NCBI GenBank assembly: GCA_016649995.1
Contig: JAENWJ010000007.1
Location: 1 to 56,677, forward strand
Length of the DNA: 56,677 bases
Direction: 5' to 3'
From: Peptostreptococcaceae bacterium
GTDB lineage: Bacteria > Bacillota > Clostridia > Peptostreptococcales > BM714
A model generated the notes under the pieces. That model saw only the letters and a program-made list of their open reading frames with translations, made no database searches and was not told the DNA's origin. A program made the position numbers and the translations under genes. Each line of letters starts with the position of its first letter. Positions within the stretch are counted from its first letter, which is position 1. Shown here piece after piece: positions 23,160 to 43,297 of the stretch.

Positions 23160-25019
23160 ATGAATGCTTTCACAAAATCCATTATGAGAATCTACAAAGG
23201 CTCGATAGAGGCCTTCCAAACATTTCCGGCATCAATTGCAAGCGCTTTGGCTTTTGCAATTGTTACAATGGTAAGGATACAGCTTGATTGGCCCGAACAG
23301 GAGGCATATAATTTCCTATTCAACTGCCTTCACTGGGCATTTGCGCTTGGAGCCATATTCGGGTTGGCGTCAATAACGTTTGCTCAGAGCCGCAGCAATA
23401 ATGCAAAGTCTTTCAAGACTGCAAATCTGCTTGGACTTTTGGTTGTTGCGGGTGCGTTTGCCACGCTTTATTTATTCGGAGCTGGAGATGCTGCAACCGA
23501 AACGACGCGGTTTTTAAGGGTTTCAGAAATTGCTTCGGTGCGGGTTTTAGCCGCATTGATTGTGAGCTTTTTGGCTTTTATAGTTCTTGCAGGCTTTCCA
23601 AAAGAAGAATCTGATTTTGCTCAATCGTTTTTTATGACCCACAAGGCCTTTTTCATAGCGGCGATTTATGGAATAGTAATAATGGGCGGAGCTTCCGGTG
23701 TAGCAGGCGCCATTCAAGCCTTGCTTTACAATGATATGAGTGAAAAGGTATATATGTATATTGCTACAATAGCCGGTTTCTTGGCTTTCACAATTTTTGT
23801 GGGATATTTCCCTGATTTTCGCAAAGGGAAAACCGATGAACACCGCAATATTGCCCAAAAGCAACCGCGCTTTGTTGAAATTCTGTTTGAATTCATAATG
23901 GTTCCAATAATAATAGCTATGACTGCGGTTCTTATTGCTTGGTCGGGGCGTACTATTATTACGGGCGACTGGCCTCCATTTGAAGAGCTCTCGAGCATTG
24001 CTACAGCCTATGCGTTTGGGGGGATATGGCTCCATGTGATGGTGACGCATGGAAAATCGGGATTGACCAAATTCTATCGAAAGGTTTACCCGATTGCGGC
24101 AATTGTTATTCTCGCTTTCGAGGCATGGGCAATCATGGATCAGCTTGGCAGGTTTGGTCTTAAAACAATCGAATACTATTTTATATTGACATGGATAGTC
24201 GCTGCTTCTGCTTCGGTTTTTTTGCTTTTAATGAAGGGAAAAGCACATAGAGCAATCGTTTTCGTCATATGTGCCGTGATTATAGTTTCAGTTTTACCTG
24301 TAGCGGGATACAATGTTTTGCCTGTAAATATGCAGGCCAACCGATTGGAGGGCTTGCTTGAAAACGAGGGGATGTTTAAGGAGGGACAGATTGTTCCTGC
24401 AAATGATGAGCCGAAACAGTCTGTTATGGAATCCATTACGGATTCGGTAATCTTTATTGCCAGTGCAGATGATGCGGATTTACCGGGATGGTTTGATGAG
24501 CGACTTGCCGAGAAAAATGTTTTTGAGGAGAAATTGGGATTTAAGCAGATTTGGCCTGAGAATGACAATTATTATAGTGGGAAGGGAACATATATGGGAA
24601 CATCACTTTTCTTGACCCGCGAACCCATAGATATAGAAGATTACAAATGGGCATTTAATGATATTAGTCTCTATGATGGAGAAGAGGAATCAGTCAGTTT
24701 AAATGGCGAAAGAGGCGTGTATAGATTCTATTGGAGAATGGGAAGAGACAGCGAGATTCCATCGCTTGAAATAACATTGGATGGTGCGACAATTATCAAT
24801 GAAGACATGAATGATTATTTAGACCGCATATTGGAAGAATATCCAATTGGGAGCAGAGAGAAGCAAGAAACTCCGTTAAAGGATATGAGCATGAGTATTG
24901 AAACCCCTGAGGCAGAAGTGCTTTTGGTTTTCAGACATGTTGAGGCAAATGTAGATCCACAAGATGACATTATCAATTATTGGATTGATTTAGATGCAGT
25001 ATATTTCAATGAAAAGTAA
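23160..25019 (+). CDS. DUF4153-type polytopic membrane protein
   Basis: This 619-residue protein has about 11-12 hydrophobic segments in the first 390 residues and a soluble, probably external, acidic C-terminal domain of about 220 residues that includes YRFYWRMGRDSEIP. The membrane part follows the DUF4153 pattern (ASALAFAIVTMVRIQLDWPEQ near the start). DUF4153 proteins are of unknown function. GGGGGTGG is a strong ribosome site. It is followed 38 bases later by a small metallopeptidase gene, so the two may share a transcript. Confidence 0.7.
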   Translation: MNAFTKSIMRIYKGSIEAFQTFPASIASALAFAIVTMVRIQLDWPEQEAYNFLFNCLHWAFALGAIFGLASITFAQSRSNNAKSFKTANLLGLLVVAGAFATLYLFGAGDAATETTRFLRVSEIASVRVLAALIVSFLAFIVLAGFPKEESDFAQSFFMTHKAFFIAAIYGIVIMGGASGVAGAIQALLYNDMSEKVYMYIATIAGFLAFTIFVGYFPDFRKGKTDEHRNIAQKQPRFVEILFEFIMVPIIIAMTAVLIAWSGRTIITGDWPPFEELSSIATAYAFGGIWLHVMVTHGKSGLTKFYRKVYPIAAIVILAFEAWAIMDQLGRFGLKTIEYYFILTWIVAASASVFLLLMKGKAHRAIVFVICAVIIVSVLPVAGYNVLPVNMQANRLEGLLENEGMFKEGQIVPANDEPKQSVMESITDSVIFIASADDADLPGWFDERLAEKNVFEEKLGFKQIWPENDNYYSGKGTYMGTSLFLTREPIDIEDYKWAFNDISLYDGEEESVSLNGERGVYRFYWRMGRDSEIPSLEITLDGATIINEDMNDYLDRILEEYPIGSREKQETPLKDMSMSIETPEAEVLLVFRHVEANVDPQDDIINYWIDLDAVYFNEK

Positions 25020-28815: not shown

Positions 28816-29751
28816 TTATAGTTCTCCGCACTTCTTGAGAAGCGATTCCCATTTTCTGTCGACTTTCTTCTGGATGTCTGCAATCAAGTGCTCGTTGCCC
28901 GGTTTGAAAAGATGCTTGAATCGTCCTTGAGGTTTTAAATATTCTTCTATTGGAAGTTTGTTTTTCGGTTTGTAAGTTAGCTTCCATTCGCCGTTGACTA
29001 CTTCGAAAAGTGGCCAGAAACATGTATCTACTGCAAGCTTGCAAATTTCCATTAATTCTTCAGGTTCATATCTCCAACCTCTGGGACAAGGTGCTAATAC
29101 GTTTAAGAAAGCGGGTCCTTTAGTATAGATTGCTTTCTCGGCTTTTTCGTGGATATCTTTGAAGTTGCCCATGAATGTTGTTTGGGCAACGTAAGGGATT
29201 TCGTGAGCAACCATGATTTGAGATAAATCTTTTCTGAATTGTTGCTTGCCAGGTACAACGGTACCTGCTGGAGTAGTTGTTGTATCCGCATACTTTGGAG
29301 TTGCAGAAGAACGTTGTATGCCTGTGTTCATATAGGCATTGTTGTCATAGCATACATATACCATATCATGACCACGTTCCATCGCACCTGACAACGATTG
29401 GAAACCGATATCATAGGTTCCACCGTCTCCACCGAAAGTGATGAATTTATATGTTTCGTCAATTTTGTTTTTGCGACGAAGGGCGTTATATGCCGCTTCT
29501 GCACCGGAAATAGTAGCTGCAGCGTTTTCGAATGCATTATGGATAAAAGAGTCTTTCCATGCAACATACGGGTAGGTGAAGGTTGAAACCTCAAGACAAC
29601 TTGTTGCTGATCCAATGACAGCTTTATCATCTTCCTTTAATGCACGCAGTACAGCTCTGACGGCCAAAGGAGCGCCACAACCGGCACACATTCTATGGCC
29701 ACCTGTCAGTCGTTCGGGTTTGTTCATTACTTCTTTAAATTGATATGCCAT
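28816..29751 (-). CDS. porB: 2-oxoacid:ferredoxin oxidoreductase beta (TPP) subunit, operon 1
   Basis: This catalytic subunit binds thiamine diphosphate and decarboxylates the 2-oxoacid. It carries an N-terminal Cys motif MCAGCGAP near residue 22 and a further Cys in TSCLE, probably for a 4Fe-4S cluster. The TPP/Mg motif is GDGGTYDIGFQSLSG...NNAYMNTG (about 108-144). ATG 29751 has AGGAG 8 bases upstream; a GTG three codons earlier is less likely. It is the last gene of porGDAB (minus strand). Pyruvate is the default substrate for this gene order, but branched-chain or aryl 2-oxoacids cannot be excluded from sequence. Confidence 0.88.
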   Translation of the reverse strand: MAYQFKEVMNKPERLTGGHRMCAGCGAPLAVRAVLRALKEDDKAVIGSATSCLEVSTFTYPYVAWKDSFIHNAFENAAATISGAEAAYNALRRKNKIDETYKFITFGGDGGTYDIGFQSLSGAMERGHDMVYVCYDNNAYMNTGIQRSSATPKYADTTTTPAGTVVPGKQQFRKDLSQIMVAHEIPYVAQTTFMGNFKDIHEKAEKAIYTKGPAFLNVLAPCPRGWRYEPEELMEICKLAVDTCFWPLFEVVNGEWKLTYKPKNKLPIEEYLKPQGRFKHLFKPGNEHLIADIQKKVDRKWESLLKKCGEL

Positions 29752-29762
29752 ATTATCCACTC

Positions 29763-30944
29763 CTATTCTCGGACGCCGAGGTAACGATAAGCCTCGCCCT
29801 GATTTTTACCATCTTTTATAGCAAGCAGTTCATTGAATATGGATTCGATGTGAATAGTTCTAACATCACGTCCACCCAGACCATAAATATAGCTGATTGT
29901 CTTTGGCGGATTAGGAAGATCATAAAGTGCTGTGCGGACTTCAGCAAATACAGGTCCGCCGATAGTGGAAAAACCGTCATGACGATCCATTACAGCGATA
30001 ACCTTGACATTTTTTAAAGCCGCAGCAATTTCCGCATCCGGAAAAGGTCTGAATACTCGTAGTTTTAGTAGGCCAACTTTTTTGCCGGCTGCTCTCATTG
30101 TATCAATTGCATCTTTCGTAGTTCCGGCAGCAGAGCTGAGAACGATAATGGCAACTTCAGCATCATCAAGTTTGTAAGCTTCAAAGAACTCATAGGGTCT
30201 ACCTGTCATTTCGCCAAATTCTTTTCCAATGGCTGAAATTATTGCTTTTGCATTTTTCATGGATTCCAATTGGTTTCGCTTGTGCTCGATGTAATATGCT
30301 GGACTATCGTAGGGACCTATGGCAATAGGCTCTTTGGAGTTCAGCATATATTGTTGTGGTTCATATTCGCCAACAAAATCTTTGACTTCTTTATCCTCAA
30401 TCAATTCGATATTTTCAACACCATGAGATGTGATAAAACCGTCCTGGCAGACCATTACGGGCAGTTGTACATCCGGGTGCTCGCCAATTCTAAAAGCTTG
30501 AATGAAATTATCGTATGCTTCTTGATTGTTTTCTGAATAAATTTGAATCCATCCTGAATCTCTAGCACCCATTGAGTCGCCGTGGTCGCAATTTATGTTG
30601 ATTGGTCCAGTCAGGGCTCTGTTGACACAGGCGAGGGTGATGGGTAATCTGGCGGATGCCGCCACATATAAAATTTCGTGCATCAAAGCCAAGCCTGCTG
30701 ATGAAGTTGCAGTTACAGTTCTTGCGCCTGCAGCCTGTGAACCCATGCATGCGCTAATGGCACTGTGTTCCGATTCTACAGGTACAAATTCAGTATCAAC
30801 TAATCCATTTGCTACAAATTGTGAAAAATATTGTGGTATTTCAGTTGATGGCGTTATTGGAAAGGCAGCCATAACATCTGGGTTAATCTGCTTCATTGCA
30901 GTTGCAATTGCTTCGTTACCGGACAATCTATCTCTAATTCCCAT
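29763..30944 (-). CDS. porA: 2-oxoacid:ferredoxin oxidoreductase alpha subunit, operon 1
   Basis: This 393-residue subunit includes the pyrimidine-binding side of the TPP site: AFPITPSTEIPQYFSQ near residue 27, the conserved Glu in PVESEHSAISACMGSQAAGAR, TATSSAGLALM, and the CoA/dimer region RVFRPFPDAEIA near 295. ATG 30944 has GGAGGG directly upstream; longer starts run through porD. It lies between porD (1-base gap) and porB (11 bases). Confidence 0.88.
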   Translation of the reverse strand: MGIRDRLSGNEAIATAMKQINPDVMAAFPITPSTEIPQYFSQFVANGLVDTEFVPVESEHSAISACMGSQAAGARTVTATSSAGLALMHEILYVAASARLPITLACVNRALTGPININCDHGDSMGARDSGWIQIYSENNQEAYDNFIQAFRIGEHPDVQLPVMVCQDGFITSHGVENIELIEDKEVKDFVGEYEPQQYMLNSKEPIAIGPYDSPAYYIEHKRNQLESMKNAKAIISAIGKEFGEMTGRPYEFFEAYKLDDAEVAIIVLSSAAGTTKDAIDTMRAAGKKVGLLKLRVFRPFPDAEIAAALKNVKVIAVMDRHDGFSTIGGPVFAEVRTALYDLPNPPKTISYIYGLGGRDVRTIHIESIFNELLAIKDGKNQGEAYRYLGVRE

Positions 30945-30945
30945 G

Positions 30946-31263
30946 TTATCCCTCCTTCTTCTCGTCTTTGATAAAATCGATAGCATCAAAAGGACATGCT
31001 TTTGCACATATTCCGCAACCCTTGCAATGATCGTAGTCAAAATCTAATCGTTTTTTGTTTTCGACTGGGATAGCTGAATCTGGACATACGGGAACACAAA
31101 GTAGGCATTGTTTGCACTTGTCTGCTTTGAAAATTGGAATCATAGTTCTCCAATCACCTGTTTTAAAAAAATGAGCGTTGCCAGATTGTGCAATCGTGCC
31201 TCCTGGGGTGATATCTTTCCAGCTGATGCTTTCATTGATATTTACGGGATTATTTTTGCTCAT
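30946..31263 (-). CDS. porD: 2-oxoacid:ferredoxin oxidoreductase delta subunit (2x[4Fe-4S]), operon 1
   Basis: This 105-residue ferredoxin-like subunit has two CxxCxxCxxxC clusters: CKQCLLCVPVCPD and CKGCGICAKACPF. It passes electrons from the TPP site to external ferredoxin. It overlaps the porG stop by one base. An N-terminal stretch of about 40 residues (SWKDITPGGTIAQSG) docks it to the other subunits in this family. Confidence 0.9.
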   Translation of the reverse strand: MSKNNPVNINESISWKDITPGGTIAQSGNAHFFKTGDWRTMIPIFKADKCKQCLLCVPVCPDSAIPVENKKRLDFDYDHCKGCGICAKACPFDAIDFIKDEKKEG

Positions 31264-31838
31264 TATTTAGCCACCTCCTGCATTGCTGTCTTGAGTGCGG
31301 CCATGTTGCCGCTTATGACTTCAGGCTTTGTAGCAAATTTATGATTGAATGAACCCTCCATTGCTTTGAGGAAGGTAGTTTCTTTCATAATCCCACTTAC
31401 CTTTACAACTGCACCTAGCATTGGTGTGTTTGGAAAGTTTCGGCCAAGAGTTTCTTCGGAAATCTTTCGTGCATCAATAGTGTAAATACGTCCATCGAAA
31501 TTTTTGATTTTAGATTTTATTTCTTCTACAGATTTTGGAGTATTGATGATAATAGCTCCTTCGGATTTTAAACCGGCTGTAACATCGACCGTCATAAGCA
31601 ATGTTTCGTCAACGACAACAACAAAATCCGGTTCGTAAATATTGGAATGTACTCTAAGGGGAACATCACTGATTCTGTTGTAGGCTGTAATTGGAGCCCC
31701 CATTCTTTCCGGACCGTATTCAGGAAAGCCTTGAACAAAATTGCCTGTGATGAATGCTGCATCCGCCAACAAGAGAGAAGCGGTTTTTGCACCTTGACCG
31801 CCTCTTCCATGCCAACGTATTTCTGTAAGATTTGACAT
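31263..31838 (-). CDS. porG: 2-oxoacid:ferredoxin oxidoreductase gamma subunit, operon 1
   Basis: This 191-residue subunit has the family start IRWHGRGGQGAKTAS and the FPEYGPERMGAPITAYNRIS motif that binds CoA. It is the first gene of a tight porG-porD-porA-porB operon. AAAGGAGG is the ribosome site. A -24/-12 element lies 35 bases upstream and the sigma-54 activator gene is divergent, so the operon is probably induced by that activator. Confidence 0.9.
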   Translation of the reverse strand: MSNLTEIRWHGRGGQGAKTASLLLADAAFITGNFVQGFPEYGPERMGAPITAYNRISDVPLRVHSNIYEPDFVVVVDETLLMTVDVTAGLKSEGAIIINTPKSVEEIKSKIKNFDGRIYTIDARKISEETLGRNFPNTPMLGAVVKVSGIMKETTFLKAMEGSFNHKFATKPEVISGNMAALKTAMQEVAK

Positions 31839-31872
31839 TCGGTATACCTCCTTTAAATTTATTAATTATATA

Positions 31873-31888
31873 TGCAAAAATGATGCCA
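31873..31888 (-). promoter_or_regulatory. Sigma-54 (-24/-12) promoter of porGDAB operon 1
   Basis: Read on the minus strand: TTGGCATCATTTTTGCAT. TGGCAT, five bases, TTGCA matches the TGGCAC-N5-TTGCW consensus with exact spacing between GG and GC. Transcription should begin near 31862, 24 bases before the porG ATG. An inverted repeat TTGG-N7-CCAA at 31897-31911 lies just upstream and could be an activator half-site pair. Confidence 0.75.
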
Positions 31889-31993
31889 AACTTACATTGG
31901 TGTATTTCCAAGGATGTCGTTGAATAGCAAAGTTTAATTTGTTAGAATAAATGTTATAATAACAATGAAATGTTAGAATATTGGAGGATTATA

Positions 31994-33400
31994 ATGTATA
32001 GAAAATTGTCGATCGAAATTGCGGATAGCGTCATGAACAAGTCGAATGATGGAATTAACGTTGTTGACAGGGAAGGAATTTTGCTTTATGTAAACAAGGT
32101 ATCGGCTGACTATGCAGGATACTCTATAGAAGAAATGGTCGGCAAGCATATTTCTCGCTACTATCCGATGGCTGTTCTCCTTAAGGTTTTAAAAGATCGC
32201 CAGCCTATTTTAGAAAAGCGAATCCATTATGTAAAAAGTAAAAGGTATGTGGTAAATTCTTATCCTTACTATTTGCAAGGCGAATTTGCAGGCGCTTTCT
32301 CAATATTTCGGAGCGTTAAGGAAATCGATGAGCTGAACAAGAAAATTAAATATTTGGAATTGCAGTTGGAGCTTAACTCAGTCGTAAATAGTGTTCAGTC
32401 AATTATAGGCAAAGATGGAAGCCTTAGTGATGTAATAAAGCAGGCCAGAAGGACGGTAGGATCACTGGGAGGGCCCCGGCATTCGATAATAATTGGAGAA
32501 TCGGGAACAGGGAAAACCATGGTTGCAAGTATGATCTATAATTATGCCAAGGACATAGGCGTAATAAGCCAAGATGCTCCGTATATTGAGATAAACTGTG
32601 CTCAATTCACAAATTCGGATATCGCAGCCGTTGAAATATTCGGAAGCGAAGAAGGAGCATATACAGGTTCGAAAAGAAAAAAAGGCCTTTTTGAGCAGGC
32701 AAATGGAGGTATTTTGTTTTTGGATGAGGCACATGCTCTTGAACACTATCAAAACTTGTTGCTAAAGGCAATTGAAACGGGAAAAGTACGCCGCGTGGGC
32801 GGATCGAGAGAACACAGGGTTAATGTGATTGTAATAGCGGCCTCTACAAGAAATCTTAAAATGGAATTGCTTCCGGAGCTCTACCAAAGGCTTGCGCAAT
32901 ATGAAATTTATATTCCATCGCTTGAAGAAAGGAAGTATCGGGAAAAAAGCCAATTGTTGGACTATTTTGTCGAGAGGTATCAGGAAGCGGTAAAAAATCT
33001 TCATGAAATCAACTATAAAGTTGTAATTCCGCCCGAAGTTAGAGAAATTCTTCTTAATGCCCACTATCCGAGGAATATTAGACAGATGAGAGATGTCATA
33101 AATTATAGCATCGACTCTGCATCGCCTTTAATTGACGATATAGATCTTGCAAACGATATAACAACTACAGTAAGGCTTAAGGACCTGCCGTTTGAATTGA
33201 TAGACAGGGAAGAGGGGGATAATACTGGGAAAATAGATAAGACTGTTGAAAGGCTTATTGACAATTATAAGACAGAAGGAATGGGCGCACGAAGAATTTC
33301 AAAGGAACTCAAAAAAATCGGACATAATATAGAGTATTACCAAGTTGCGTATTTTATGAAGAAAAAAAAGGATTCCGGAAAAAACGAATCACCATTTTAA
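31994..33400 (+). CDS. PAS-containing sigma-54-dependent activator
   Basis: This 468-residue protein has an N-terminal PAS domain (about 10-105, DGINVVDREGILLYVNKVSADYAGYSIEEM), a short coiled linker, a AAA+ domain with Walker A GESGTGKT (about 167-174), the sigma-54 contact loop GAYTGS (canonical GAFTGA) and Walker B GGILFLDEAHAL. The C-terminal HTH is in TEGMGARRISKELKKIGHNIEYY. It should hydrolyse ATP to open sigma-54 polymerase. It is divergent from porGDAB, whose promoter is of the -24/-12 type. GGAGG precedes ATG 31994. The signal seen by PAS is unknown; a 2-oxoacid or amino acid is plausible. Confidence 0.88.
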   Translation: MYRKLSIEIADSVMNKSNDGINVVDREGILLYVNKVSADYAGYSIEEMVGKHISRYYPMAVLLKVLKDRQPILEKRIHYVKSKRYVVNSYPYYLQGEFAGAFSIFRSVKEIDELNKKIKYLELQLELNSVVNSVQSIIGKDGSLSDVIKQARRTVGSLGGPRHSIIIGESGTGKTMVASMIYNYAKDIGVISQDAPYIEINCAQFTNSDIAAVEIFGSEEGAYTGSKRKKGLFEQANGGILFLDEAHALEHYQNLLLKAIETGKVRRVGGSREHRVNVIVIAASTRNLKMELLPELYQRLAQYEIYIPSLEERKYREKSQLLDYFVERYQEAVKNLHEINYKVVIPPEVREILLNAHYPRNIRQMRDVINYSIDSASPLIDDIDLANDITTTVRLKDLPFELIDREEGDNTGKIDKTVERLIDNYKTEGMGARRISKELKKIGHNIEYYQVAYFMKKKKDSGKNESPF

Positions 33401-33485: not shown

Positions 33486-34700
33486 ATGCCGGAATTTGCA
33501 AAACGAATGTCGACAATGGAAGAATCAGCGACTGTCATTAGAAAATTGTTTGGAGCCATGAATGATCCAAATTTGATATCATTCGGAGGCGGAGCGCCGG
33601 CGGTGGAGGCTTTGCCGATAGATATCGTACGCGAAATCACAAACGATGTTATGAGGATTGACAAAAGAGGGGTGGAAGCCCTTCAATATGGCAATGTAAT
33701 GGGAGCGGAAGACTTGAGAAAAGTCATTGTAAACGAGCTTCTGAAACCAAAGGGTGTAGACGCTAGCATCGAAAACATTATTATAATAAACGGCGGGTTG
33801 GAAGCCATGAATTTGCTCTGCCAGTTATACATAGAACCGGGGGATGTCATATTGGTAGAATCGCCGTCCTTTGTTCATTCCGTAGAAATTTTCGACATGT
33901 TTGAAGCTAAGTGTATTGGAGTCGAAATGGACGAAGATGGAATGGTTACGGAGGACTTGGAAGAAAAAATCAGAAGATACAATCCTAAAATGATCTATGT
34001 TATTCCAACCTTCCATAATCCTACGGGCAGAACCCTGTCTCTCGAAAGAAGAAAAAAAATTGCTGAACTCGGAAGCCAATATGATGTAATTATTCTTGAA
34101 GACGATCCCTATAGGGATATAAGATACAGTGGAACGGATTTGTTGCCCATAAAGGCCTTCGACAAAACCGGGCATACTGTTCTTGTGAACAGTTTCTCAA
34201 AGATTTTTTCGCCTGGAAGTAGGCTCGGCTACATATTTGCAAACGATGAGATAACTAAAAAACTTTTTGCAGCAAAAACGGCTACGAATTCTCATACGTC
34301 TATGATTCCTCAAATATTATGTGCCGAATTCTTCAAGAGAGGGTATTACCCCGAGCATCATAAAAAGATATGCGACTTGTACAGGGAAAGAAGAGATACG
34401 ATGATAGAGTGCATAGACAAGTTCTTTCCCGTTGGCACAAAAAGAGTCTTTCCTGATGGAGGGTTGTTTACATGGGTTGAGTTGCCGGAAGGCATAAATA
34501 CCACGGAATTGCTGGTCGAAACCGTGAACAATCCGGATGTCAAAGTGGCTTTCGTTGCGGGAGAAGGGTTTTTTGTTGAAGGGAACGGAAAAGGAAATAA
34601 CTGCATGAGAATTAGTTTCGGAGGAGTTCCGCCCGAGAAAATAAGAATTGGGGCGGAAAAGCTTGGGAAGTATATTTGCGGAAAGCTTAAAGAGAATTAA
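33486..34700 (+). CDS. PLP-dependent aminotransferase (class I/II, 2-aminoadipate aminotransferase-like)
   Basis: This 404-residue fold-type I enzyme shows FGGGAPAVEALP near the N-terminus, the substrate loop YGNVMGAEDLR, PTFHNPTGRTLS (Asn and Thr/Gly of the cofactor site), ILEDDPYRDIRY (Asp binding the pyridine N), and the Schiff-base lysine in VNSFSKIFSPGSRLGY, with the C-terminal CMRISFGG Arg. Family members move amino groups from aromatic, branched or 2-aminoadipate-type substrates. GGAGGG precedes ATG 33486. Its place between the sigma-54 activator and the oxidoreductases fits supply of 2-oxoacids from amino acids. Confidence 0.85.
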   Translation: MPEFAKRMSTMEESATVIRKLFGAMNDPNLISFGGGAPAVEALPIDIVREITNDVMRIDKRGVEALQYGNVMGAEDLRKVIVNELLKPKGVDASIENIIIINGGLEAMNLLCQLYIEPGDVILVESPSFVHSVEIFDMFEAKCIGVEMDEDGMVTEDLEEKIRRYNPKMIYVIPTFHNPTGRTLSLERRKKIAELGSQYDVIILEDDPYRDIRYSGTDLLPIKAFDKTGHTVLVNSFSKIFSPGSRLGYIFANDEITKKLFAAKTATNSHTSMIPQILCAEFFKRGYYPEHHKKICDLYRERRDTMIECIDKFFPVGTKRVFPDGGLFTWVELPEGINTTELLVETVNNPDVKVAFVAGEGFFVEGNGKGNNCMRISFGGVPPEKIRIGAEKLGKYICGKLKEN

Positions 34701-34791: not shown

Positions 34792-36312
34792 TTACTCGAG
34801 CCATTTACCCTTTATCAAATCCTTTGCATCCCTTGTTAATGGAATTAAATCGGTTCTGTCCAAATAGCTTATATCAAATTTTCTATTGAGTGCTGCGAAA
34901 TGCTTAACGCCGAAAGCAATCTTGTTAAGATAGGAGAAAACTCCGATTGCACCGGGCGAGAAATTGTTTGCTTCTTTGCCATATATTGCTCGTAATTCGG
35001 CGAGGTCGCCGAATATTTCTTCGATTGAAGAACCGTATTTGCTGAATATTTTTGGAACATTGCCTTCATTTATCATTTCCCCTACTTTTTTACTGTTCAT
35101 CGCAGCCGCCATTGCCGCACGGCATATTCCTATAGCGGTCACATCACCGTCACCATATGCTATAGCCTTGAAAACCTGATCTTCGGAAGCGAATCCGCCT
35201 GTTATAGTTATTGCCGGAATCCATAGCCCTTCCTTTTTAAGTTTCTTGACTATGGTGCAAATTGCTTCCTCCATGACGACTGTGGGATATGCCCATTCGT
35301 TCATCATCTTGCATGGACTGTAGCCGCTGCCGCCGCCAGCTCCGTCAAAGGTAATCATGTCAACCCCTGCCTTGCTCCCCAGGCGTATCGATTTTTCAAG
35401 ATCTGAAGGATCGTAACCGGCCATTTTAAAGTAAACATTCTTTGCGCCCATTTCCCGTAGCTCTGCAACTCTTGGTACCAGATACTCTTCTGTCCAAAGA
35501 GGGAGCCTGGCATATACATAGAAGTTTGGGCATACGCCTTCTTTGTAGGCTTTTATGACCTCTGGGTCGATTGGATCGGGATGAACAAGATTGCCTGTTT
35601 CCTGCTTTTTGATTGCGTCTTCCATATTTTTAAGACGGACAATCGGTTGGGTTCCTTTGGCTCCCTGACCGAATTTTATTTCTATTGCCTCTGCTCCCTG
35701 TTCTTTTATAGCATACTCGGGGAGTCCAAGCATATTGTCTTCGACATTACACTGCAAAATTATCTGTCCATATCCTCGGTAGTATTTGTTGAAGGATGAT
35801 AGAATTTCTTTTAGCCATGGGAAATGCGTTATTTTGCCATTTTCTATCTTGAGTTCCGGGTCTTTATTTCTTGCATCTTCACCTATGACACAGCAAACGC
35901 CGGCCATTGCCGCTCCTGCAAAATAATCTTTCCAATTGAGCTTAATGAGAGCCGGAAGGATGACAGGCATCGCCAACTTAACGCGATTTACTTTGCCGAA
36001 TTCCTGCTCAATATTGACATTGAAAATATTTGCTTCTTCATATGTAGGATTAACGCCTGTAGCTCCGAAAACTCGTCCGTTGATATTGAAATTTGAATAA
36101 TCTAAAGGATAGTCTTTTTCCGAACCGACTTGGTTTGTTCCTGTAGTGGTAGGGTAGACGGTGCGCATGCCTAAAACCGCAGCCAATCCGAGTTCACAGG
36201 TTGTTGTACATTCCTCTGTGCATAGAGAACACATTCCTGATTGAGGCGAAAGTTTGTTGCTTCGATTCTTTGTATCATTGAAAGCCGATGACAATGCTGG
36301 TGAATAAGTCAT
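34792..36312 (-). CDS. Glutamate-synthase-like FMN/FeS protein (GltB central-domain family)
   Basis: This 506-residue protein starts with a Cys-rich motif CSLCTEECTTTCELG (about 28-42). A TIM-barrel domain as in the FMN part of glutamate synthase follows: FKMAGYDPSDLEKSIRLGSKAGVDMITFDGAGGGSG, ITGGFASEDQVFKAIAYGDGDVTAIGICRAAMAA. It lacks the glutaminase domain, so it cannot on its own use glutamine; archaeal-type GltB-like proteins have this layout. The likely role is redox chemistry in amino-acid metabolism. AAAGGGGG is the ribosome site. Monocistronic on the minus strand. Confidence 0.8.
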   Translation of the reverse strand: MTYSPALSSAFNDTKNRSNKLSPQSGMCSLCTEECTTTCELGLAAVLGMRTVYPTTTGTNQVGSEKDYPLDYSNFNINGRVFGATGVNPTYEEANIFNVNIEQEFGKVNRVKLAMPVILPALIKLNWKDYFAGAAMAGVCCVIGEDARNKDPELKIENGKITHFPWLKEILSSFNKYYRGYGQIILQCNVEDNMLGLPEYAIKEQGAEAIEIKFGQGAKGTQPIVRLKNMEDAIKKQETGNLVHPDPIDPEVIKAYKEGVCPNFYVYARLPLWTEEYLVPRVAELREMGAKNVYFKMAGYDPSDLEKSIRLGSKAGVDMITFDGAGGGSGYSPCKMMNEWAYPTVVMEEAICTIVKKLKKEGLWIPAITITGGFASEDQVFKAIAYGDGDVTAIGICRAAMAAAMNSKKVGEMINEGNVPKIFSKYGSSIEEIFGDLAELRAIYGKEANNFSPGAIGVFSYLNKIAFGVKHFAALNRKFDISYLDRTDLIPLTRDAKDLIKGKWLE

Positions 36313-36450: not shown

Positions 36451-37131
36451 TTAGATTTCGATGTCGGTTTTTAAAGGCTCTTCGTTTTTATATTTAAAAA
36501 TGGCGCGCCAGGTTTGGCCGAGAGTGTTGTGTTGAATCATTGCAGGATCGAATTTAAACAGCTTGAAGGTCGTTTGTATACAAAAGCCGATTGCAAAGGC
36601 CGATATAATTGTGCCTAAACCGACCATGCCGCCCAAACGCCAACCGATAAAAACTGCTATAAGTTCGATGCTTCCGCGGCATATGCCAACTGAAAGTTTC
36701 GTTTTGCGAGTAAGAGCGACCATGAGGCTGTCTCTAGGGCCGGCTCCGAATCCGGAGCCGATATAGTAGTATGAAGCCAAGGAGATTATCATCATACCTG
36801 CAAACATCATAATCAAACCAAAAACGAAATTGCTTGCCGTGGGAATAAATTTGAACATAAGGATGACATCGAGGAATACGCCTATAAGAACCATGTTGAG
36901 AATAGTGCCCAGTCCAAGTTTTTCCCCGAGCATGATGGACAATATTCCAACGGCTAAGCCTGTAATAATGGAAGCAGTTCCTATGCTGATGCCTGCCGTA
37001 TTGGCAAACCCCACATGGAAGACTTCCCATGGAGCGTAGCCGATGTTTGCCTTTAAAGTGAAGACTATTCCAAGAGAGTACAGAAAAAGCCCCCACAGAA
37101 GCCTGAGTAGTCGCATATAGAATAATTTCAC
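36451..37131 (-). CDS. YczE/YyaS/YitT-family membrane protein, copy 1
   Basis: This 226-residue protein has about five hydrophobic helices and motifs LRLLWGLFLYSLGIVFTLKANIGYAPWEVFHVGFA and GSGFGAGPRDSLMVALTRKT, typical of YczE relatives (uncharacterised; sometimes next to transporters or antibiotic genes). The start is GTG 37131, with AAAGGGG 9 bases upstream. A close paralogue lies at 38009-38668 on the same strand, on the far side of gene debris. Confidence 0.75.
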   Translation of the reverse strand: MKLFYMRLLRLLWGLFLYSLGIVFTLKANIGYAPWEVFHVGFANTAGISIGTASIITGLAVGILSIMLGEKLGLGTILNMVLIGVFLDVILMFKFIPTASNFVFGLIMMFAGMMIISLASYYYIGSGFGAGPRDSLMVALTRKTKLSVGICRGSIELIAVFIGWRLGGMVGLGTIISAFAIGFCIQTTFKLFKFDPAMIQHNTLGQTWRAIFKYKNEEPLKTDIEI

Positions 37132-38008: not shown

Positions 38009-38668
38009 TTACTGTATTTTTTCTTTTCTTGCCCCAAGTTTTGCAAAAGTTTGAACGAATGTTTCGTGTTGCACCTCGGTCGGATCGAATTTTAAAAGCT
38101 TGAAAGTAATCTGTATGAAGTATCCTATGGCGAATGCCGAAACTATCGTTCCGACTCCGAACATTCCACCAAGTTTCCAACCTGCCAGCGCAGTGGTTAC
38201 TTCGATAGCGCCCCGGCAGACTCCTACCGGAAGCCCCGTCTTACGCGTAATGGCAACCATAAGGCTGTCCCTTGGTCCTGCACCGAAGGCAGAAGCAATA
38301 TAGTGGTAACTTCCATAGGATAGAATAAGCATGCCGCCTGACATCATTGCCAAACCGTATGCAAAATTATTTGCTGTCGGGATAATATTCATTGGAAGAA
38401 TTAAGTCAAGAAACAACCCGATTACAATCATGTTGAATATAGTTCCGATTCCTATCTTTTCTCCAAGAATGATAGTTGCAACACCGACAACCAGTCCGGT
38501 CAGTATAGATGCTATTCCTATTGTTGTGCCTATTGTATTGGCAAGCCCGGCATGGAATACATCCCAAGCAGGATAGCCTATGTTTGCTTTTAGCATAAAT
38601 ACAATTCCTATTGAACAGACAAAAAGCCCCAAATTCAGGCGAACAAAACGTACTATAAACGATTTCAT
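38009..38668 (-). CDS. YczE/YyaS/YitT-family membrane protein, copy 2
   Basis: This 219-residue protein aligns with copy 1 along its whole length by eye: GIVFMLKANIGYPAWDVFHAGLANT, LGEKIGIGTIFNM, ASAFGAGPRDSLMVAITRKT, FAIGYFIQITFKLLKFDP. A duplication is the simplest explanation. ATG 38668 is preferred, with GGAG 6 bases upstream; a TTG four codons earlier includes that site. Function unknown. Confidence 0.75.
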   Translation of the reverse strand: MKSFIVRFVRLNLGLFVCSIGIVFMLKANIGYPAWDVFHAGLANTIGTTIGIASILTGLVVGVATIILGEKIGIGTIFNMIVIGLFLDLILPMNIIPTANNFAYGLAMMSGGMLILSYGSYHYIASAFGAGPRDSLMVAITRKTGLPVGVCRGAIEVTTALAGWKLGGMFGVGTIVSAFAIGYFIQITFKLLKFDPTEVQHETFVQTFAKLGARKEKIQ

Positions 38669-38824
38669 AAAAAGCTCCAATCGGCACTAAAATTTACATT
38701 AATTCAATCTTCGGAAAGCAGTATTTTACTAATTTATGGCTCATGTTTGATCAATGCATGAATAAAATTCTATAGTTTTTTTGAAGAATGTCAATAGGAT
38801 AATAATATTGAAGGCAAGTAATGA

Positions 38825-38855
38825 TTGACGAGCTAATATATCGCTGATATATTAG
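38825..38855 (+). promoter_or_regulatory. Promoter with perfect palindromic operator before porGDAB operon 2
   Basis: TTGACG (38825-38830), a 17-base spacer and TATATT (38848-38853). CTAATATATC-GCT-GATATATTAG (38833-38855) is a perfect 10-bp inverted repeat inside the spacer and -10. A repressor bound there would block polymerase; the GntR/FCD regulator that ends the operon is the natural candidate. Confidence 0.7.
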
Positions 38856-38882
38856 AAGTATACTACCTGAGGAGGTATGAAA

Positions 38883-39425
38883 ATGATTGAAATCAGATGG
38901 CATGGACGCGGAGGTCAAGGTAGCTTTACTGCATCTCGTATTTTGGGAGCGGCGGCTTCTGTGCATGGCGGCAAGTATTCTATGGCTTTTCCTTCATTTG
39001 GACCGGAAAGACGAGGAGCTCCGGTAGCGGGCTTTACAAGAATTTCAGATGAAAAAATCACGGATCGCAGCGAAATAATTTCACCTGATTATGTAATTGT
39101 ATTAGATGAAACGCTTTGGGAAAATGGGGTGCTGAATGGATTAAAGGAAGATACTATTTTAATTATCAACACCGATAAACCGAATAAATATGAAAAGCTG
39201 ATACCGCAGAAGGTTATTTCGGTAGATGCCACATCAATTGCATTGGATGTTTTGGGTCTGCCCATAACAAATACGGCTATGATGGGCGCTTTTATTGCTG
39301 TAAGCGGTCTTGTTACGCTTGAAGATGCTAAAAAAGCTATAGATGACAACCTGAAACCCAAGGTTGCAAAGAAGAACAAAGAGCTTATAGAAAAAGTATA
39401 TGAATTGGTGAAAGGAGCTCAATGA
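38883..39425 (+). CDS. porG: 2-oxoacid:ferredoxin oxidoreductase gamma subunit, operon 2
   Basis: This 180-residue subunit begins IEIRWHGRGGQGSFTASRIL and has FPSFGPERRGAPVAGFTRIS. It is diverged from the operon 1 copy, though the fold and CoA motif are shared. ATG 38883 is chosen because GAGGAGG lies 6 bases upstream; ATG 38877 touches that site. First gene of porG-porD-porA-porB-gntR. Confidence 0.9.
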   Translation: MIEIRWHGRGGQGSFTASRILGAAASVHGGKYSMAFPSFGPERRGAPVAGFTRISDEKITDRSEIISPDYVIVLDETLWENGVLNGLKEDTILIINTDKPNKYEKLIPQKVISVDATSIALDVLGLPITNTAMMGAFIAVSGLVTLEDAKKAIDDNLKPKVAKKNKELIEKVYELVKGAQ

Positions 39426-39724
39426 TGGATAGACCAAAAGTTGAAGAATGGACTGCCCCGAAATCGGTTAGGGAGTATCCATTGGGTTCCACCTGCGCAA
39501 GTGGCCATTTAACAAGTATAAATGCAGGATGGAGAACATTCAGACCGGTTATTGATTATGATAAATGCGTTAATTGTCTTAGATGCTTCTTGGTTTGCCC
39601 CGATGGAGTCATAGATAAATCGGGAGAAAAGCTTGAAATTGATTACGATTACTGCAAGGGTTGCGGAATATGTGCAACTGAATGCAAATTCGGAGCCATA
39701 ACGATGGTTAAGGAGGTGAAATAA
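39425..39724 (+). CDS. porD: 2-oxoacid:ferredoxin oxidoreductase delta subunit, operon 2
   Basis: This 99-residue ferredoxin-like subunit has clusters CVNCLRCFLVCPD and CKGCGICATECKF (2x[4Fe-4S]). AAAGGAG lies at 39411-39417; ATG 39425 or 39422 are both possible. It overlaps the porG stop and is followed by porA after 1 base. Confidence 0.9.
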   Translation: MDRPKVEEWTAPKSVREYPLGSTCASGHLTSINAGWRTFRPVIDYDKCVNCLRCFLVCPDGVIDKSGEKLEIDYDYCKGCGICATECKFGAITMVKEVK

Positions 39725-39725
39725 C

Positions 39726-40913
39726 ATGGAGAAAAATATCAAGTTTATTTGCGGAGACGATGCAGTAGCGGAAGGTGTAAGACTGTCTAGGCCTCATGTT
39801 ATTTCTGCCTATCCAATAACGCCGCAGACAATTGTTGTTGAGAGGCTCTCCGAATTAGTTGAAGACGGATCCCTCAAAGCGGAGTACATGCATGTTGAAT
39901 CCGAGCATAGCGCAATGTCTTGTGCCATAGGCATAAGTGCTGTAGGCGCAAGAGCCTTTACAGCGACATCTTCGCAGGGACTTTTATACATGGCGGAAGC
40001 ATTGCCGTACGCAAGTGGTCAAAGGCTGCCTATTGTAATGATGAACGCAAATAGATCAATCGCAACTCCATGGAGCATTTTTGGGGACCATATGGACTCA
40101 ATGTTCCTTCTCAATTCAGGATGGATTCAATTCTATGTTGAGGATGCCCAGGAGGCTCTTGACATGACCATCCAGGCATATAGGATAGCAGAAACCAAAG
40201 AGGTAATGACACCGGTAATGGTAAATGTTGACGGTTTCGTATTGACACACACATACGAAATGGTTGAGATTCCTGAGCAGGAAAAGGTTGACGAGTTTCT
40301 GCCGCCCATATCTATGCCATGCAACAGCATGTCGCTGGAAAACCACAAAAGCCTGTGCATTTCTGCAGGAAAAGATACAAACATGGAATTCAATATGAAG
40401 AGGCATTTTGAAATGCTTGAATCAGAAAATTATATAGAAGCAATCGACAAGGAGTTTGGAGATGCTTTCGGAAGATACTATCATGGAATGATGGAAACAG
40501 TTTACATGGAAGATGCCGATGTAGCGCTTATTACAACAGGCAGCGTAACCGGTACCGCGAGGGTGGTTCTAGAGGAAATGAGGAAAGCAGGCAAGAAGGT
40601 AGGCCTCATAAAGCTCAGGGTTCTAAGACCTTTCCCGATGGACAAGATGGTAGATGCGCTTAAAAATGTAAAGGCTTTCGGAGTTCTGGACAAGAATATT
40701 TCGTTTGGCTACGAGGGAACTATATTTACCAATGTTAATTCATCAATAGTTGCAATGGAAAAACTTCCCAAAGCAATAAACTTCATTGGCGGAATCGGCG
40801 GAAAAGACATAACCCATGAAGATATTAAAAAGGCCTATGACGGGTTGCTTTCGGCAGCTGGCGGAAATTCGTTCGAACGTGTACAGTATATGAATGTGGG
40901 GTGTGACTACTAA
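39726..40913 (+). CDS. porA: 2-oxoacid:ferredoxin oxidoreductase alpha subunit, operon 2
   Basis: This 395-residue subunit carries SAYPITPQTIVVERLSE, HVESEHSAMSCAIGISAVGARAF and RVLRPFPMDKMVDAL. Compared with the operon 1 protein it has many substitutions in the substrate-facing part (YPITPQT instead of FPITPST), so a different 2-oxoacid, such as a branched-chain or aryl one, is plausible. AAGGAGG is the ribosome site. It ends on the porB start. Confidence 0.85.
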   Translation: MEKNIKFICGDDAVAEGVRLSRPHVISAYPITPQTIVVERLSELVEDGSLKAEYMHVESEHSAMSCAIGISAVGARAFTATSSQGLLYMAEALPYASGQRLPIVMMNANRSIATPWSIFGDHMDSMFLLNSGWIQFYVEDAQEALDMTIQAYRIAETKEVMTPVMVNVDGFVLTHTYEMVEIPEQEKVDEFLPPISMPCNSMSLENHKSLCISAGKDTNMEFNMKRHFEMLESENYIEAIDKEFGDAFGRYYHGMMETVYMEDADVALITTGSVTGTARVVLEEMRKAGKKVGLIKLRVLRPFPMDKMVDALKNVKAFGVLDKNISFGYEGTIFTNVNSSIVAMEKLPKAINFIGGIGGKDITHEDIKKAYDGLLSAAGGNSFERVQYMNVGCDY

Positions 40914-41806
40914 TGGCAAAACTAAATGCGCGTACAATAACAAACAAGGAATATTTTTACGGCCATAAGGCATGCGGTGGATGCGGCGAAAGCTTGGCAC
41001 TCAGGCATGCTATGAAGGTGCTCGGAGAGAACACATTTGCGGCTCTTCCTGCAGGGTGCATGGCGGCTGTGTCATTCATCTATCCACACATGGCATTTAC
41101 AACAAATGCCATGATTACACCATTTGCGGCAACAGGCGCAGTGGCTTCGGGGATGGCGGTTGGGCTTAAGGCTCTTGGCGTTGAAAATACCCAAACAATA
41201 GGATTCGCCGGAGATGGTGGAACTGCAGATATCGGATTTCAGGCCCTGTCGGGAGCCATCGACAGGAATGATGACATAATATATATGTGCACTGACAATG
41301 AAGCCTATATGAATACAGGTATTCAGAAGAGCGGATTGACACCATATGGTACGAAGACAACTACCTCTCCTGCAGGAAAGAACCTGCATGGAGCTATAAC
41401 TCACAAGAAGAATATGTTTGAAATAGTAGCGGCTCATGGAATATCTTATGCCGCAACTGCAAGCGTAGGTTATCTTGAAGACTTCCTTATGAAGGTGCAA
41501 AAGGCAAAGGATACGAAAGGAACATCTTTCATTCATGTGTTTGTACCGTGTCCTACAGGATGGGGTTATCCGGCTGATCAAACGGTAGCATTGGCTAAAG
41601 CCGTTGTCGACTCGGGACTTTGGTATCTTGCCGAATATGAAGACGGTGAATTCAAAGTGAATAAGAATCCAAAGGAATTCACATCAGCAAAAGATTACCT
41701 GAAGGTTCAGGGTAGATTTAAGCATTTGACGGATGATGACATTGCAGTTATTGAAGAACACAGAGACAAGAAGTGGGAAATGATAAGAAGAAAATGGAAC
41801 ATATAG
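40913..41806 (+). CDS. porB: 2-oxoacid:ferredoxin oxidoreductase beta (TPP) subunit, operon 2
   Basis: This 297-residue TPP subunit has a Cys motif ACGGCGESLALRHAM near residue 21 and a further Cys in PAGCMA. The cofactor motif is GDGGTADIGFQALSG...DNEAYMNTG (about 100-138). It overlaps the porA stop by one base. It closes the enzyme operon and is followed after 19 bases by the regulator gene. Confidence 0.88.
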   Translation: MAKLNARTITNKEYFYGHKACGGCGESLALRHAMKVLGENTFAALPAGCMAAVSFIYPHMAFTTNAMITPFAATGAVASGMAVGLKALGVENTQTIGFAGDGGTADIGFQALSGAIDRNDDIIYMCTDNEAYMNTGIQKSGLTPYGTKTTTSPAGKNLHGAITHKKNMFEIVAAHGISYAATASVGYLEDFLMKVQKAKDTKGTSFIHVFVPCPTGWGYPADQTVALAKAVVDSGLWYLAEYEDGEFKVNKNPKEFTSAKDYLKVQGRFKHLTDDDIAVIEEHRDKKWEMIRRKWNI

Positions 41807-41825
41807 ACCGATAGGAGAAATGATA

Positions 41826-42473
41826 ATGGCAGAACAGGCGAATGTGGGAATATTTCGTATTCTTAAGAAGAGAATAATAGAAATGGAATATGAACCGGGT
41901 ATGGCTATTTCGGAAAAAGCCCTTATAGAGGAGTTCGAAGTAAGCCGCACGCCTGTTAGAGAAGCCTTGCTGAAATTGTCGCAGATAGGGTTGATTGAGA
42001 TGGTTCCGCGGGTTGGCACCTTTGTTACGCAGATCAATCTTATGAAAGTCAAATATGCATACGAGGTAAAAAAGAACCTTGAAGGTTTGGCTGCCGAGCT
42101 GGCATGCGAGAGAGCATCGCAAGATGAGATAGACGAGTTATTTGAAATCATCGAGAGATTTTCAAAGTATGATATAGTCAAGGACTATAAATCTTGCATA
42201 CAGGACGATCAGAGATTTCATGCAATCGTCAGGCAAGCAGCAGGCAACCCGATTCTTTCAGAGACATTGGATGAGCTAAATACAAAGACAGCGAGATTCT
42301 TGCAGTATATTCACTATATAATAGATGATTACGAGTGGTTCAACTCGTCACTAAAAGAAATGGCGGATGCTATTAAAAGTCGAAATAAAGAATCGGCTCG
42401 CAAATCGACAGAAAGACATACCTTGAAATTTTTGGAACAGCTATCAAAGAATTTTTTCGGGAATCCTCAATAA
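41826..42473 (+). CDS. GntR-family regulator, FCD type
   Basis: This 215-residue regulator has an N-terminal winged helix (ISEKALIEEFEVSRTPVREALLKLSQIGLIEMVPRVG split over about residues 28-64). The FCD ligand domain has DDQRFHAIVRQAAGN and a later ERHTLKFL His, the residues that bind a metal and a carboxylate in FadR/LldR relatives. It most likely senses a 2-oxo- or 2-hydroxy acid and controls operon 2 through the palindrome at 38833-38855. ATG 41826 has AGGAG 8 bases upstream. Confidence 0.85.
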   Translation: MAEQANVGIFRILKKRIIEMEYEPGMAISEKALIEEFEVSRTPVREALLKLSQIGLIEMVPRVGTFVTQINLMKVKYAYEVKKNLEGLAAELACERASQDEIDELFEIIERFSKYDIVKDYKSCIQDDQRFHAIVRQAAGNPILSETLDELNTKTARFLQYIHYIIDDYEWFNSSLKEMADAIKSRNKESARKSTERHTLKFLEQLSKNFFGNPQ

Positions 42474-42523: not shown

Positions 42524-43297
42524 ATGAAAAGGAATAATAATCTTAAAATTTTAGCCATTGTGAACGCATTACTATTTTTGGGAGTCATTGCTGTGAATTA
42601 TATGGCAAACGCATTGCCTATAAACGGATACAATACGGGAGAACTGTCGGACGATCTTCCTAACCTGTTTGTCCCTGCAGGGCTTACCTTTGCCATATGG
42701 GGGCTTATCTATGCCTTGCTTGCCATGTTTGTGCTGTATCAATTTCATGCGCTAAAAAAGCGGAATGGAAGGTTCATAGGGGATATAGGGATTTGGTTCG
42801 CGGTGTCGTCTATTGCAAATATCGGATGGATATTTGCGTGGCATTACAAACAGATTGCTCTGTCTTTAGTATTCATGCTTATAATTCTTTCAAGCCTTAT
42901 ATTGATTGTGTTGCGTTTGAGACCTAACAGAAAGTATTCTACCGGGCTTGAGAAGGTTGCTGTATACCATTCCTTCAGCGTATATCTGGGATGGATATCG
43001 GTGGCGACGATTGCAAACGTTACGGCAGTGCTTGTAACTATTAATTGGAATGGATTCGGAATAGGCCATGAATTTTGGACGGTTCTTGTCATCGGAGCCG
43101 CAATAATGCTTGCATGGCTCAGCTTGGCAAGATTCGGGGATATCCCTTACGCGCTTGTCATAGATTGGGCGCTTGTAGGAATTATAATGAAGAGATATCA
43201 AACCGGAGGATTGGAGTATATGTGGATTCTTATAATCGCAACTATAGGAGTTGTGTTTATAAGTTCGCTTAGCCTATATAAATTTGTTAGAAGATAA
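42524..43297 (+). CDS. TspO/MBR-related multi-pass membrane protein
   Basis: This 257-residue protein has about seven hydrophobic helices. The segment FVPAGLTFAIWGLIYALLAMFVLYQF and the later NIGWIFAWHYKQIALSL follow the pattern of the tryptophan-rich sensory (TspO-like) superfamily, though it is longer than classic TspO (about 160). Ligand and role are unknown. AAGGAGGGG is a strong ribosome site. Monocistronic between two terminators. Confidence 0.6.
   Translation: MKRNNNLKILAIVNALLFLGVIAVNYMANALPINGYNTGELSDDLPNLFVPAGLTFAIWGLIYALLAMFVLYQFHALKKRNGRFIGDIGIWFAVSSIANIGWIFAWHYKQIALSLVFMLIILSSLILIVLRLRPNRKYSTGLEKVAVYHSFSVYLGWISVATIANVTAVLVTINWNGFGIGHEFWTVLVIGAAIMLAWLSLARFGDIPYALVIDWALVGIIMKRYQTGGLEYMWILIIATIGVVFISSLSLYKFVRR

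Follow-up and report, generated by a model that had tools for sequence, protein, structure and literature searches.

Organisation of the por1 locus

The window, a stretch of 56,677 nucleotides from contig JAENWJ010000007.1 of Peptostreptococcaceae bacterium (GCA_016649995.1), carries two porGDAB operons for 2-oxoacid:ferredoxin oxidoreductases, the first of which (por1) is read divergently from a gene for a predicted sigma-54 activator. On the minus strand, por1 opens with porG1 (31263-31838), the gamma subunit gene, whose product scores above the cut-offs of PF01558 and TIGR02175, followed by porD1 (30946-31263; a reading frame for a ferredoxin-like delta subunit of 105 aa), porA1 (29763-31040; alpha subunit, PF01855/PF17147), and porB1 (28816-29760; beta, TPP-binding subunit, PF02775). 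Gamma, delta, alpha, and beta subunits are all present, with POR, Fer4, POR_N/PFOR_II, and TPP domains, porD1 being assigned by position and similarity to porD2 of the second operon alone; orthologues at the same place also resemble porD2. Judging by the starts of its orthologues, porA1 probably begins near 30944, after porD1.

The nearest solved structure to PorA1 is the alpha chain of a pyruvate:ferredoxin oxidoreductase (9bt4_B), and the protein retains the threonine of FPITPST and the arginine of NRAL, which we take to be the pyruvate-type catalytic positions of the PorA family. PorA2 keeps both as well, so these residues do not separate the specificities of por1 and por2, and the strict pyruvate:ferredoxin oxidoreductase equivalogue scores below its cut-off. 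Compared with porGDAB/VOR-type oxidoreductases, por1 has the four subunits in the usual order and the same threonine and arginine, with no structural difference seen.

Upstream of porG1, a -24/-12 element, TTGGCATCATTTTTGCA (TTGGCAT-N5-TTGCA), occupies 31873-31889 of the minus strand, with its GG at 31887/31886 and its GC at 31875/31874, exactly 10 nt apart. The -12 element ends 35 nt short of the porG1 ATG (31838), and transcription is predicted to start at 31862, about 12 nt past the GC. The coordinates thus bear out the exact spacing and the distance of 35 bases given in a first-pass annotation of this DNA, which had also described a PAS-type sigma-54 activator on the opposite strand; PAS and Sigma54_activat domains are indeed found in the product of that gene (31994-33400, plus strand), whose identification also draws on orthologues and a tree. 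Its reading frame opens at 31970 (476 aa), and the ATG at 31994, which would give 468 aa, is probably the start codon because GGAGG stands at 31983-31987 and the N-termini of the orthologues agree.

Conservation of activator, promoter and operon

Orthologues of the activator were sought in about 1,300 genomes, yielding a group of 17 members, the window's own included, which forms a single branch in the tree (support 100/100); some of the 17 loci belong to close relatives and are hence not independent. In 12 genomes, namely the window's and those of 11 orthologues (57-80% identity to the window's activator) that belong either to the window's own order or to another order of its class, the activator gene and this porG-D-A-B operon point away from each other, with a TGGCAY-N5-TTGC site 34-83 nt 5' of porG in every case. 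Identity to the window is 68-90% for PorG1 and 73-89% for PorB1 in the other divergent-layout genomes, and 67-89% for PorB1 over all other por-linked ones. The thirteenth por-linked genome, G600, has its activator gene upstream of por in the same direction, yet porG retains a -24/-12 site and TGTTA repeats in front of it. The set of promoter, activator, and enzyme is common to the window and a dozen other bacteria.

The four remaining orthologues are more distant (47-53% identity), and each is encoded at the end of an operon that also specifies a TRAP transporter, a nickel-pincer isomerase, and several unclassified proteins. An exact sigma-54 site lies upstream of three of these operons and a weak one upstream of the fourth. 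Genome G1132 fits poorly, with a weak -24/-12 site and one distant repeat. Within the TRAP operon (loci L085-L088; L084:318-2341), the isomerase matches NF052515 (nickel-pincer isomerase group 22) and is accompanied by a MoaB-like protein, while conserved proteins of about 126, 340, 120, and 193 aa have no NCBIfam match; genes of this kind, for 126, 340, and 195 aa, come after porB in G600.

A direct-repeat array upstream of the promoter

Direct repeats of the form TTATAACA/TTCTAACA recur every 10-12 bp upstream of the promoter as a conserved array. Given on the plus strand, the window copies are repeat 1, TGTTAGAAT (TTCTAACA on the por strand; 31940-31948); repeat 2, TGTTATAAT (31952-31960), found in all 12 divergent por-linked genomes; and repeat 3, again TGTTAGAAT (31971-31979), immediately 5' of the activator's ribosome-binding site. 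Their distances to the -24 element are 58, 70, and 89 bp. All nine intergenic regions first compared carried TGTTATAAT and related copies of TGTTAGAAT on the activator strand, and the three divergent por-linked genomes added later likewise had TGTTATAAT.

On the por strand, the repeat pattern takes the form T[AC][CT]AAC[AG]; over the 200 bp that precede each of the 17 sites, it gave 49 copies against 2.9 +/- 1.6 in shuffled sequences, with a strand bias of 49:7 in favour of the por strand. Spacings were mostly 10-12 bp, with many copies at distances of 57-60 and 67-72 bp from the -24 element. The pattern had been chosen after the first alignment of nine loci, then fixed and tested on eight new ones, where 24 copies were counted against 1.4 +/- 1.2, a number reached in none of 2000 shuffles; this hold-out answers in part the post hoc choice of pattern. 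On the por strand, no copy was found at seven further sigma-54 promoters of this genome, and G600 has a single repeat match on each strand. A test of helical phase between the -12 element and TGTTATAAT gave p of about 0.004 (0.02 on distinct values) and was set aside, since its rows are related and the test itself was chosen post hoc; the repeat ladder is relied on instead.

The array might alternatively consist of sigma-A promoter elements of the activator gene in AT-rich DNA, with the enhancer elsewhere. TGTTATAAT does fit an extended -10 (TGnTATAAT) of that gene in all 12 divergent cases, so that conservation of the array may in part be conservation of a promoter in this layout. The TRAP operons speak against such a reading: the activator is the last gene there, with no promoter of its own at the ladder, yet the repeats recur in three of the four (at 57/67/77 bp in G920, 60/70 bp in G1086, and 69/92/103 bp in G681), at distances similar to those before por, which indicates that the array follows the protein. 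Moreover, promoters do not feature tandem copies one turn apart, and the array is missing from the seven other sigma-54 promoters. The promoter-element explanation is consequently considered unlikely, and the repeats are better read as a putative binding array of the activator, in which the overlap of repeat 2 with the extended -10 may couple binding to autoregulation. As the tandem pattern is found once in the genome, the activator probably acts on one target there.

An activator with a LevR-type engine

The activator combines a PAS domain with Sigma54_activat (PF00158, 125 bits) and keeps the Walker A motif GESGTGKT and the Walker B motif FLDE. As the first-pass annotation had pointed out, its sigma-54 interaction loop reads GAYTGS in place of GAFTGA. 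This is the typical variant of the clade (GAYTGS in 11 of the 17 members, GAFTGS in two, GSFTGS in one, plain GAFTGA in three), and it retains the threonine and an aromatic residue; GAYTGS is also given for DVU0679, a mapped activator of Desulfovibrio (PMC4641369). A defect owing to GAYTGS was rejected for a variant that sits within a clade with GAFTGA members.

The arginine fingers of PspF, R162 and R168, both lie within RxDLYYR (PMC12054792). All 17 clade members have this segment shortened to LLPELYQRL (FIPELYQRL in one), with one arginine finger absent, whereas 26 of 28 other activators have RxDLYYR and the other two RKDFxYR, both arginines being kept in all 28. LevR-type proteins show the same shortening together with a DE-x-H Walker B and a retained GAFTGA, and the clade's AAA+ engine groups with theirs in the tree (support 99/98), a grouping drawn from two LevR-type proteins, in which long terminal branches surround a short internal one. 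From the shared shortening and the tree, the gap is read as a LevR trait and not as a defect, and its occurrence in LevR-type proteins also removed the loss of the first finger as a unique novelty.

The C-terminal domain was modelled as three helices with a pLDDT of 77, the full-length model being of low confidence (pLDDT 39.7). The Fis-type domain HTH_8 (PF02954) had no match in the C-termini of 11 orthologues, even at E 5, and an assignment as Fis-type was discarded on that ground. None of the Pfam matches shown for this domain reached its cut-off, a fold search returned weak HTH-like matches only (E 0.76 and above), and the best hit of a profile search against the PDB was RecX (E 0.059). 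Among NCBIfam families, the best match of the activator is PrdR (NF041552), the proline reductase activator, likewise a regulator of anaerobic amino-acid metabolism; the score of 192.6 bits falls far short of the 795 required, and identity with PrdR was rejected.

Could the divergent protein be a sigma-54-independent regulator, in the fashion of TyrR, with another activator driving the por promoter? The altered AAA+ domain, with GAYTGS in the window protein and the RxDLYYR segment lost throughout the clade, would suit such a role, and the genome holds ten other canonical activators. However, orthologues with the same missing segment have plain GAFTGA, LevR-type activators lack the segment and keep GAFTGA too, GAYTGS occurs in the Desulfovibrio activator, and the -24/-12 site and the repeat array accompany the clade even at an unrelated operon. 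This alternative is accordingly given even less weight than a promoter origin of the repeats, and the divergent protein is taken as the probable sigma-54 activator of por1.

Sigma-54 and the porG1 promoter

Exact matches to TTGGCAYN5TTGCW number one in the window against 0.09 expected from shuffles, and TGGCAYN5TTGCW has 18 in the genome against 0-1 for a reversed control pattern. About eight of the 18 are intergenic; the remainder, about half, lie within reading frames and are presumably due to chance. A lone match is therefore little proof, and conservation has to decide. The site is kept at the same place in 13/13 por-linked genomes, in which most of the flanking DNA cannot be aligned. Despite the intragenic matches, it is thus scarcely credible that the element is a chance string and that the operon uses a sigma-A promoter.

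The absence of rpoN, named in the first-pass annotation as an observation that would speak against sigma-54 control, does not apply, as the genome encodes a single rpoN gene on contig C8 (Sigma54_DBD, PF04552, 208.7 bits). Reading the por1 promoter as sigma-54-dependent is strongly supported, and the control of the operon that had been suggested gains support from the joint conservation of operon, activator, site, and repeats.

The second por operon and other oxoacid oxidoreductases of the genome

The second operon, porG2-D2-A2-B2, lies at 38877-41806 on the plus strand, as defined by reading frames and domain matches. It had been described as having a sigma-A-type promoter with a palindrome, and both were recovered at 38825-38855 (plus strand): the hexamers of TTGACG-N17-TATATT (38825-38853) overlap a perfect 10-bp inverted repeat, CTAATATATC-GCT-GATATATTAG (38833-38855). 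In the nearest relative, the hexamers are retained and the inverted repeat partly so. A GntR/FCD regulator (41820-42473, plus strand; PF00392, PF07729) is encoded directly 3' of porB2 and is a candidate regulator of this operon, for which repressor-type control is plausible.

The earlier contention that only one of the two porGDAB operons is under sigma-54 control holds within the window but understates the genome, where at least three other oxoacid-oxidoreductase loci lie behind sigma-54 sites. Genome-wide, seven POR_N loci look intact, another is truncated at a contig end, and one more has decayed. Exact sigma-54 sites precede a ptb-buk-ferredoxin-vor-like run on contig C53, a ferredoxin-POR run on C87, and, on C13, a ptb gene with a decayed ior-like gene after it; on C72, an ior-like gene that begins at the contig end has a near-consensus site in front of it. 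The names ptb, buk, vor, and ior were given by sequence reading and not by a family scan. Sigma-54 control of 2-oxoacid:ferredoxin oxidoreductases therefore looks like a repeated theme in this genome.

On C53 (186-7763; L107), a gene for a PAS activator comes first, then the sigma-54 site and the ptb-buk-ferredoxin-vor-like operon, an arrangement of the branched-chain oxoacid pathway that recalls the sigma-L-controlled bkd operon of Bacillus. On C13 (23796-25500; L109:3797-5720), the sigma-54 site stands before an intact ptb-like gene, after which come remnants, disrupted by frameshifts, of iorAB-like genes for an indolepyruvate oxidoreductase.

Proposed mechanism

It is considered highly likely that porG1-D1-A1-B1 is transcribed from the promoter at 31873-31889 by sigma-54 polymerase, and solely when the divergent activator is switched on. 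The PAS domain would sense a signal in the cytoplasm, probably either the redox state or a product of amino-acid breakdown such as a 2-oxoacid. The C-terminal three-helix domain is expected to bind the TTATAACA/TTCTAACA array, which, with spacings of mostly about one helical turn, would place several activator subunits on the DNA. By analogy with its family, the LevR-type AAA+ ring would contact sigma-54 through GAYTGS and remodel the closed complex with ATP. With its middle repeat over the extended -10 of its own gene, bound activator would probably also limit its own expression. Por1 itself would oxidise a 2-oxoacid to acyl-CoA, with ferredoxin reduced, in the amino-acid fermentation of this anaerobe, and the second operon would be served by its sigma-A-type promoter with the operator-like inverted repeat.

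Relation to known systems

In LevR proteins, the DNA-binding part is N-terminal and the PTS/PRD domains are C-terminal. These PRD-containing activators and the window protein share an engine that lacks the segment ahead of the conserved RL/RI and has the DE-x-H extension of Walker B, but the layout differs, as the window protein has an N-terminal PAS domain and ends after its C-terminal three-helix domain. With NtrC/PspF-type activators it has in common the Walker A motif, the sigma-54 interaction loop, and the overall role, whereas it is without one of the two arginine fingers, has GAYTGS in the loop, and shows no detectable Fis domain. The control of por1 would therefore be a variant of a known mechanism, departing from the textbook NtrC/PspF engine in the finger segment and the loop. 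There is about an even chance that the clade represents a new sigma-54 activator architecture, in which a PAS domain, a three-helix DNA-binding domain of an unnamed family, and a LevR-type engine read a close one-turn ladder at a nearly fixed distance, in place of a dyad enhancer far away, and have been reused for por and for TRAP/nickel-pincer isomerase operons.

In Clostridiales, sigma-54 is an established regulator of Stickland and fermentation genes, including iorAB through ZypR, and the text of PMC6615313 describes 15 groups of activators with inverted TGT-N10-12-ACA sites, mostly 100-250 bp upstream. The por1 array is of a different type from these sites and closer to the promoter (PMC6615313). 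The closest parallel described there is ZypR, with its tyrB-iorAB-butK regulon: like por1, it joins sigma-54 and a one-component activator to a 2-oxoacid (indolepyruvate):ferredoxin oxidoreductase and to amino-acid catabolism, but its target belongs to a different enzyme family and its motif is the inverted TGT-N10-12-ACA, against direct repeats at 10-12 bp for por1 (PMC6615313). The text of Table 1 of PMC6615313 contains no porGDAB group and no porGDAB target of the present activator group, and among the other papers searched there was no prior report of sigma-54 with por-type oxidoreductases.

The locus would add to sigma-54-controlled amino-acid fermentation a pair of activator and operon, predicted here and retained in more than one order, at the oxidative 2-oxoacid step, and it points to a genome in which several oxoacid oxidoreductases may each be under sigma-54 control. 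The activator seems to recognise a ladder of direct repeats set close to the promoter at a nearly constant distance, and so short a natural promoter makes the geometry of enhancer-bound activation testable.

Neighbouring genes

Directly after the activator, 33486-34700 (plus strand) encodes an aminotransferase similar to the enzymatic portion of MocR/PdxR regulators, a position kept in the nearest relative only. On the minus strand, a protein of 505 aa (34792-36312) contains only a glutamate-synthase-like stretch (PF01645), has no NCBIfam match, and shows 81% identity to its counterpart in the nearest relative. Two paralogous YczE-like membrane proteins, both below the NCBIfam cut-off, are also encoded between the por operons (36451-37131 and 38009-38680, minus strand). 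Reading frames for 619 aa (23160-25019) and 257 aa (42524-43297), both on the plus strand, have no Pfam match.
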